Below are positions 37,414-42,082 of a stretch of 64,000 nt of DNA, in pieces. The DNA is from Anaeromyxobacter diazotrophicus. Its GTDB lineage: Bacteria > Myxococcota > Myxococcia > Myxococcales > Anaeromyxobacteraceae. How positions within the stretch are numbered: position 1 is the stretch's first letter; each line of letters begins with the position of its first letter. The notes below the pieces were generated by a model, which worked only from the letters and a program-made list of their open reading frames with translations, ran no database searches and had not been told where the DNA came from. The position numbers and the translations under genes were made by a program. The DNA lies in assembly GCF_013340205.1 (NCBI RefSeq), contig NZ_BJTG01000002.1, positions 372,001 through 436,000 on the forward strand, written 5' to 3'.

Positions 37414-38247
37414 CTAGGCGCGCCCGGAGTCGCCCGCGGCGAGGCGGGCGGCGTCGAGCACGAACACCGGCTGCTTCGCCGCGGCCCAGCGCGCGGTGCG
37501 GGTCACGAGGGCCGAGCCGAGCCGCGAGGCCTCGAGGGGGTCGTCGCCCTCCACGAGCGTCAGGTCGGTCACCGCCTCCGCGCGGTCGACGATGGCGACC
37601 GCCGAGCGGCCGCCGCCGGCGATGGCCACGCCGATCTCCCGGTGCTGCGCGCGCACCACGTCACGGAGCTGCTCGAAGAGCCGCACCAGCTCGGCGAGGA
37701 GCCCCTGGCGCGCGCGCTCCAGCACCTGGAGCGCCTCCTCGGCGCGCCCGCCGGTCCGGAGCGCCGCCACCTCGTCCGCCAGCGCGTGGATGGCGGCGTG
37801 CGGCTTCTCGAAGCGCTCGAGCTCACCGCGCAGCACGGCGTCGTCCGTGCGGAACGCGTAGTACCACTGCCCGAACTTGCACTTGCGCGGGTCGGTGGCG
37901 AGCCCGAACGCCCGGTCCTCGCGCACCGAGGCCGTGAGCTCGGCGAGCCAGCGGAGGTGATCCTGCTCGCGGTCGCGGAGGAGCTGCAGGAGCTCCTCGA
38001 GCGCCGCCGTGGCCGAGGGGAGGCCGAGGCAGACGCGCAGATCGACGGCGGGCAGGGTCCCGGCCCGGAGCGCCGCCACGCCGCGCTGGTGCGGGCGTGA
38101 GCCCGGCAGCCGGTGGATGGGCGGCAGGACGAACATCTCCTGCACCGCGCCGGCGTCCAGCGCGACGAGGTGGGGCCCGACGCCCAGGATGCAGAAGCGG
38201 GCGCCGCGCGCCGCGGTGGCCCCTTCGGGGGAAGAGTCCTGGGTCAT
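37414..38247 (-). CDS. CheW-like protein with an inserted CZB zinc-binding domain
   Basis: 277 aa. The first half of a CheW domain (about 17-78, ending in AVDLRVCLGL) is interrupted by a chemoreceptor zinc-binding domain at about 85-190, after which the second CheW half resumes (about 205-275). The CZB ligands are complete: His97 (DHLRWL), Cys123 (RKCKFGQWYYAF), His150 and His154 (EKPHAAIHAL). CZB domains normally sit at the C-terminus of chemoreceptors or on diguanylate cyclases and sense zinc or hypochlorous acid. ATG 38247 has GAGGAAACC upstream. No other chemotaxis gene lies nearby. Confidence 0.82.
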   Translation of the reverse strand: MTQDSSPEGATAARGARFCILGVGPHLVALDAGAVQEMFVLPPIHRLPGSRPHQRGVAALRAGTLPAVDLRVCLGLPSATAALEELLQLLRDREQDHLRWLAELTASVREDRAFGLATDPRKCKFGQWYYAFRTDDAVLRGELERFEKPHAAIHALADEVAALRTGGRAEEALQVLERARQGLLAELVRLFEQLRDVVRAQHREIGVAIAGGGRSAVAIVDRAEAVTDLTLVEGDDPLEASRLGSALVTRTARWAAAKQPVFVLDAARLAAGDSGRA

Positions 38248-38419
38248 GGTTTCCTCGCAGGCGGGCGTGAGTCGCCCGGCGGCCGAGGGTGCGAGCGACG
38301 TGCCGCGCCCGGCCCGCGCCCCGCGGGCGCGGCGCCGCGGCGCGCGTGACTCAGGGTGTGTCTGGACCATCCCGAGGACGCGGGACGCCCGTCCTGGTGC
38401 GCCGTGCCGCCGCGGTGGC

Positions 38420-41130: not shown

Positions 41131-41604
41131 CTAGGGCGACGGGGCGGCCTTGCCCGCCACCGGCTTCTCCCCGGCGAGCGGCTTGAAGCTGATGGCCTCG
41201 ACCGTCCCCTCCTTGCCGAAGTAGACGGTGATCCCGGTCGGCTTGTACATCCACACGGTGCGGAAGTCGTCGGTGAAGGCCTTCTGCGACGGCTTGCCGT
41301 AGGTGCCCTCCACCGTCTCCTTGTCGAGCGCGTTCACCGGGAAGACGACCACCTCCACCACCACCCCGTCGTCGCGCGCGAAGAACTGCGCCTGGCGCGT
41401 GCCGGAGATGGCCTGGTCGCCCTTGTAGACGAGCGCGTTGCGGCCGGAGAGCTTGCCCTGCGTCGAGGGGGGCCCGAAGCGGGAGGTCACCTCGGACTCG
41501 GTGGTCGCGCCGGGGGTGACGCCCTGCCAGCCGCGCCCGGAGGCGAGCGCGGGGGCGGCCCCGGAGACGACGGCGAGCGCGACGAGGAGGCGGAGGAGGA
41601 GCAT
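41131..41604 (-). CDS. Exported BamE/SmpA-like small protein
   Basis: 157 aa with a signal peptide (MLLLRLLVALAVVSGAAPALA). The mature part starts W-QGVTPGATTESEVTSRFG, a pattern shared with BamE/SmpA-type proteins. There is no lipobox Cys, so it is probably soluble periplasmic. A perfect TATAAT lies 5 nt before its start codon on the minus strand. It is divergent from the cytochrome gene, with overlapping start regions. Confidence 0.75.
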   Translation of the reverse strand: MLLLRLLVALAVVSGAAPALASGRGWQGVTPGATTESEVTSRFGPPSTQGKLSGRNALVYKGDQAISGTRQAQFFARDDGVVVEVVVFPVNALDKETVEGTYGKPSQKAFTDDFRTVWMYKPTGITVYFGKEGTVEAISFKPLAGEKPVAGKAAPSP

Positions 41605-42082
41605 GAGGCATTATACTCCCGCGCCCGTGCTCCGAGCCCTCGCGCTGACCGCCCTCCTGCCCGCGCTCGCCGCCGGCGCCGACCTCATCGGCGCCGAGAC
41701 GTGCAAGGCCTGCCACCCCTCCGCCTACGAGGCCTGGAAGGACGGCCCGCACGCGCGGGCGACGGCCAGCCTCACCGAGGCGCAGCGCCAGGATCGCCGG
41801 TGCACCTCCTGCCACGCTCCCGACGCCGACAAGGGCGCGAGCGGGGTCGGCTGCGAGACCTGCCACGGCGGGGGCCGGGTGTACGCGCAGGCCTACGTCA
41901 TGCGCGACCGCGAGCTGGCCCGGGCGGTCGGGCTCGTCGAGCCCGGCGAGAAGACCTGCCTGGCCTGCCACACCGAGTCGGCGCCCAGCCTGACCCGGTT
42001 CGACTACGCGCACAAGCTGCCGCTCATCGCCCACGGCCGCGAGCCGGCCGAAGGTGCCCGTCGCCGCGGGCACGGAGAGTGA
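41603..42082 (+). CDS. Tetraheme c-type cytochrome
   Basis: A secreted protein with four CxxCH heme-binding motifs: CKACH (34-38), CTSCH (67-71), CETCH (84-88) and CLACH (119-123), 159 aa from ATG 41603. Two further His (about 50 and 137) may be distal ligands. The spacing resembles cytochrome c-554-type proteins of metal- and nitrogen-respiring bacteria. The start is ambiguous: ATG 41603 has GGAGGAG but overlaps the divergent gene; GTG 41627 would give a shorter, cleaner signal peptide and follows TATACT (41612-41617) by 9 nt. engB follows after 3 nt. Confidence 0.85.
   Translation: MRHYTPAPVLRALALTALLPALAAGADLIGAETCKACHPSAYEAWKDGPHARATASLTEAQRQDRRCTSCHAPDADKGASGVGCETCHGGGRVYAQAYVMRDRELARAVGLVEPGEKTCLACHTESAPSLTRFDYAHKLPLIAHGREPAEGARRRGHGE
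41610..41617. promoter_or_regulatory. Overlapping divergent -10 elements
   Basis: ATTATACT reads as TATACT on the plus strand (41612-41617) and as a perfect TATAAT on the minus strand (41615-41610). The minus hexamer is 5 nt from the ATG of the BamE-like gene; the plus hexamer is 9 nt from GTG 41627 of the cytochrome gene. The surroundings are otherwise GC-rich. No convincing -35 was found for either. Confidence 0.55.

Follow-up and report, generated by a model that had tools for sequence, protein, structure and literature searches.

A gene in the 64-kb window (the whole stretch of 64,000 nucleotides of Anaeromyxobacter diazotrophicus DNA that was analysed) encodes a protein in which a CZB domain is nested between the two halves of a CheW domain. 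Structure prediction and sequence profiles strongly support a complete CheW fold, built from strands β1-β5 and β6-β10, with the CZB predicted to lie in the loop joining β5 and β6. The nested arrangement is real and conserved, but it is no new kind of system, because the window protein belongs to a class that is sparsely described but widespread.

The initial annotation placed the open reading frame at 37414-38247 on the minus strand and read it as CheW part 1, a complete CZB and CheW part 2. The frame, strand and coordinates are correct, in agreement with a Shine-Dalgarno-like GAGGAA and with the starts of orthologs: the ATG at 38247 is the start, and the equivalent methionine starts two orthologs. 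The order of the three parts is borne out by homologs, profiles, AlphaFold and Foldseek. The features are as follows.

37414..38247, minus strand: complete nested CheW-CZB-CheW gene, 277 residues, from ATG start to stop
38251..38256, minus strand: Shine-Dalgarno-like GAGGAA directly 5' of the ATG, read from the sequence
38029..38199, minus strand: CheW part 1, residues 17-73, β1-β5 and a short helix (Pfam CheW 20-81, AlphaFold2, alignment to PDB 2ho9)
37645..38013, minus strand: inserted CZB helical bundle, residues 79-201 (Pfam CZB 97-160, AlphaFold2, Foldseek)
37957..37959, minus strand: predicted zinc ligand His97, invariant in 28 homologs
37879..37881, minus strand: predicted zinc ligand Cys123, invariant in 28 homologs
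37798..37800, minus strand: predicted zinc ligand His150, invariant in 28 homologs
37786..37788, minus strand: predicted zinc ligand His154, invariant in 28 homologs
37438..37635, minus strand: CheW part 2, residues 205-270, β6-β10 and a C-terminal helix (CZB-removed Pfam match, second stretch of PDB CheW, AlphaFold2)

The two orthologs are 59 and 53% identical and belong to the same bacterial family, the closer one being from Anaeromyxobacter sp. RBG_16_69_14, and most other genomes of that family are without the gene. An assembly or frame artefact was rejected, because these orthologs retain the whole architecture in two other genomes.

The inserted domain is a CZB, as the family score, the 3His/1Cys motif and the helical-bundle fold all indicate. 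Pfam CZB (PF13682) matched residues 97-160 with an E-value of 1.3e-11, covering profile positions 1-63 of 64 at a score of 45.2 bits versus the family cut-off of 29.4. The four ligands, correctly identified at the outset, form the motif H97..W100..C123-x-F-G-x-W128..H150-x3-H154 (HxxW..CxFGxW..HxxxH), which appeared in none of 20,000 shuffles of the protein and in 28 of 28 homologs. Cys123 is the counterpart of the redox-relevant cysteine in characterised CZBs. AlphaFold2 placed the helices of the domain at residues 79-109, 124-131, 137-144, 147-165 and 169-201, and Foldseek matched the bundle to the CZB of DgcZ (3t9o) with a TM-score of 0.74; the middle part of a 28-homolog profile matched the same CZB. 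In the 28-homolog alignment, the CZB residues are conserved far more than the CheW residues.

If residues 205-275 left the CheW fold incomplete, the protein would be simply a truncated CheW plus a CZB. This reading agrees with the intact protein, in which Pfam CheW (PF01584) matched only residues 20-81 (E-value 1.2e-11, profile positions 4-65 of 138), and with the second half, which by itself fell below Pfam CheW detection. Against it, excision of the CZB in silico lifted the Pfam CheW score from 44.9 bits to 51.5 bits and lengthened the match to profile positions 4-134 of 138. The second part also scores by itself in homologs: in L059, CheW scored 92.7 bits once the CZB was removed, and the second half on its own reached 30 bits, above the family cut-off. 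The window protein is thus a more diverged member than L059, because its own second half lies below detection. A single-sequence phmmer search against the PDB yielded nothing useful and the 28-homolog profile was needed, which matched E. coli CheW (PDB 2ho9) over 16-77 and 84-155, the two stretches flanking the CZB. AlphaFold2 (mean pLDDT 92, pTM 0.83) predicted β1-β5, the CZB helices and β6-β10, with strands at residues 17-69, CZB helices at 79-201 and strands at 205-264. In addition, Foldseek found CheW matches spanning the insert over about 260 columns (2ch4_Y with a TM-score of 0.79 and 2qdl with 0.75), and the same fold was predicted for L074 of Thalassolituus, from the most divergent branch (pLDDT 87, pTM 0.78). 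The structure-prediction check named in the initial annotation therefore came out for residues 205-275 as the fold-completing half, AlphaFold, Foldseek and the profiles being in agreement. The truncated form, to which we leave almost no probability, is ruled out by the structural and profile evidence.

A domain-architecture search for CheW-CZB-CheW recovered 36 distinct nested proteins from many phyla, sharing the same insertion site. A unique domain shuffle is ruled out by these homologs, and the rarity implied by the initial annotation does not hold, as CheW-CZB is a published class and its nested form is widespread. In a scan of genome contigs, 27 loci were detected, spread over Nitrospinota, Acidobacteriota, Verrucomicrobiota, Planctomycetota, Hydrogenedentota, Krumholzibacteriota, Raymondbacteria, Gammaproteobacteria, Ruminococcus and others; within the class of that Ruminococcus, 6 of 391 genomes carry nested proteins, with the same layout as the window protein. 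Plasmids gave no match to the nested protein. At the loci read with separate profiles for part 1, CZB and part 2, the order was nested in every protein containing both CheW and CZB (L138, with a weak part-2 match only, being labelled by hand), and the remaining CZBs belonged to longer receptor-type proteins or to small proteins without CheW. Among these loci, the CZB was in no case appended to a CheW; as nested queries had been used to find most of the genomes and loci, a rare appended form may have been missed. A single insertion origin of the nested class appears plausible, although not proven, because the 36 nested members need only 2 label changes on a tree of 59 CZB domains (mean of 18 when shuffled) and their union in one clade was not rejected (p-AU 0.48, with two very long rows left out). 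In a Hydrogenedentes MAG, two nested genes lie in tandem (L071, 4081-5523 and 5944-6783), and their products could form a heterodimer.

Perkins et al. 2021 (PMC8262984) divide CZB proteins into seven subgroups, of which CheW-CZB accounts for 1.4% of 10,140 CZB sequences and is commonest in Clostridia; it is also listed as known in Muok et al. 2023 (PMC10653840), and no other paper in the literature searched uses the name. Nesting of the CZB inside CheW is not described in the available text of either paper, figure diagrams aside, and our literature search found no experiment on any CheW-CZB protein. Like the class as described there, the window protein is a single soluble chain that unites CheW with CZB, and it is a verified, better-described member of that class. 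Similar to the window protein, Treponema denticola CheWS (CheW-CheR-like) is a CheW with an extra sensory or regulatory domain, giving array input via the coupling protein, whereas its extra domain is appended C-terminally, binds S-adenosylmethionine and is no nested zinc domain (PMC10653840). DgcZ (CZB-GGDEF) and TlpD/McpA (receptor-CZB) possess the same 3His/1Cys zinc domain, placed terminally on a cyclase or receptor, whereas in the window protein both CZB ends are tied into the output domain. The initial statement that CZBs are usually C-terminal stands as a tendency but not as a rule, the CZB of DgcZ being N-terminal (PMC8262984).

The window gene is an orphan with respect to che clusters. 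As initially stated, no other che gene lies within the window, and the closest CheA/CheW cluster is about 55 kb off (contig C2, 351656-354147). The genome as a whole has 30 receptor signalling domains, 18 CheW-type domains, 5 CheA P3 domains and a single CZB. It also encodes an odd CheW-type protein (L018, C2, 643697-643948) with a family match over profile positions 3-88 only, whose single open reading frame seems to contain two CheW halves or copies that have diverged. The neighbours of the window gene are argininosuccinate synthase and MaoC-like dehydratases, and the orthologs (L050 and L051) show no synteny with the window beyond the gene itself, the tblastx part of this comparison being mostly GC-rich noise. 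Farther along the window, an open reading frame at 41438-42082 on the plus strand has several CxxCH haem-binding motifs and is probably a multihaem c-type cytochrome. Elsewhere, the neighbours of nested genes are mostly unrelated (PriA, PgpA, LexA, RNase III and others) and therefore indicate no partner receptor or kinase; with the orthologs non-syntenic as well, assignment of function from gene neighbours was rejected. A nested gene adjoins CheB at L062, and HisKA-HATPase-receiver hybrid kinases, two of them with PAS domains, adjoin nested genes in three unrelated genomes (L053, 3697-5904; L069, 1926-4277; L079, 2424-3773). CheA P3 was present in 26 of 26 tested genomes with a nested protein.

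Alignment to 2ho9 revealed that V35, E37, G56 and R61 of the window protein correspond to the receptor-side residues V36, E38, G57 and R62 of E. coli CheW, and that the invariant D221 corresponds to D103. The equivalent of R62 is retained in 31 of the 36 nested proteins, and V36, G57 and D103 are retained as well. The equivalent of D107 is A225 and that of R140 is a glutamine. Across the nested family, R140 is mostly lost and position 107 is Ala, Ser or Gly in 28 of 36 proteins, versus Glu or Gln in all 25 ordinary CheW-type domains from the same data, a set that includes some CheA C-terminal domains. When the E. coli core unit was simulated, D107 touched residue R404 of the receptor, and R140 was proposed to relay this contact to interface 2, which lies between core units (PMC6954272). 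Positions 107 and 140 are conserved in ordinary CheW, and their residues are typical of it without defining the family. As the equivalents of both are mostly lost, it is uncertain whether the nested proteins dock in arrays in the normal way; these changes weaken the case for ordinary array function, not that for CheW-fold membership. Since V36, G57, R62 and D103 are kept while 107 and R140 are changed, the nested CheW probably retains contact with a receptor-like partner without serving as a standard building block of arrays. The gammaproteobacterial branch L074-L076 (Oceanospirillaceae and a relative) keeps the nested layout and the zinc ligands; L074 and L076 have Asp at the receptor-contact position 62, which suggests a different partner for this branch.

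We propose, at about even chances, that the window protein is a soluble coupling protein of the CheW type that receives a zinc or redox input of its own. TlpD, DgcZ and McpA are established examples of CZB signalling by way of zinc and cysteine (PMC6715182, PMC8262984 and PMC13370339). CZBs are further described as dimeric and extremely tight in zinc binding, with an α2-α3 region that loosens upon zinc loss or cysteine oxidation (PMC6715182 and PMC8262984). By analogy, the CZB of the window protein would bind zinc very tightly and dimerise in the manner of DgcZ, holding two CheW heads together. Upon zinc loss or oxidation of Cys123, the α2-α3 region would loosen, and the long first and last helices of the CZB, 79-109 and 169-201, joined to β5 and β6 by links of only a few residues, would relay the change to the CheW halves and alter their docking on receptors or CheA. 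Such a protein would be a signal-responsive CheW present as a minority component, adjusting an existing array to zinc or redox status, and would not be the main scaffold CheW. The initial idea that an inserted CZB would let zinc or HOCl directly modulate kinase-receptor coupling is thus plausible by analogy, with HOCl unlikely to be the natural cue in an Anaeromyxobacter relative from soil or sediment, and zinc or redox status the likelier signal. The case made in a 2026 preprint is that CZBs sense soluble Zn2+, which stands in for redox potential, instead of undergoing direct oxidation (PMC13370339); soluble zinc in this role would be the more natural cue for a bacterium of soil or sediment.

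Instead of serving CheA-receptor arrays, the CheW fold might dock another partner, for instance a hybrid histidine kinase of the PAS type or one receptor dedicated to it, while the CZB senses zinc or redox status. The orphan gene locations, the PAS-HisKA-receiver or HisKA-receiver kinases beside three nested genes, the lost D107 and R140 equivalents and the branch without R62 all point this way, but most homologs retain V36, G57 and R62, one nested gene adjoins CheB and CheA accompanies the nested protein in every genome tested; we regard such a departure from arrays as rather unlikely, though with an appreciable chance. On another reading, the role of the zinc site would be purely structural, and the CZB would sense nothing but only tie a pair of CheW units together as a bivalent scaffold. 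This would suit both the dimeric, tightly zinc-binding nature of CZBs (PMC6715182 and PMC8262984) and the strong conservation of the domain, which also fits a structural core. Yet it is this very cysteine through which characterised CZBs signal, and none of the 28 aligned homologs departs from the exact 3His/1Cys sensor motif, whereas a purely structural site would have no need of that particular cysteine. We hold this scaffold improbable.

A broader version of the sensing coupler, which we consider unlikely, would derive all CheW-CZB proteins from one ancient CZB insertion at the junction of the CheW halves. They would be dimeric, zinc- or redox-gated couplers lacking the usual interface 2 contacts, and would feed receptor-independent redox input to arrays by disrupting or bridging core units.

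The CheW coupling protein is usually viewed as a passive scaffold. If the proposed zinc or redox input to the window protein is true, CheW itself would be an input point, and redox or zinc status could tune the array without any receptor. The conserved nesting indicates the signal entry point into the CheW fold to be the junction of its two halves, and therefore a class known mostly from domain tables becomes testable.
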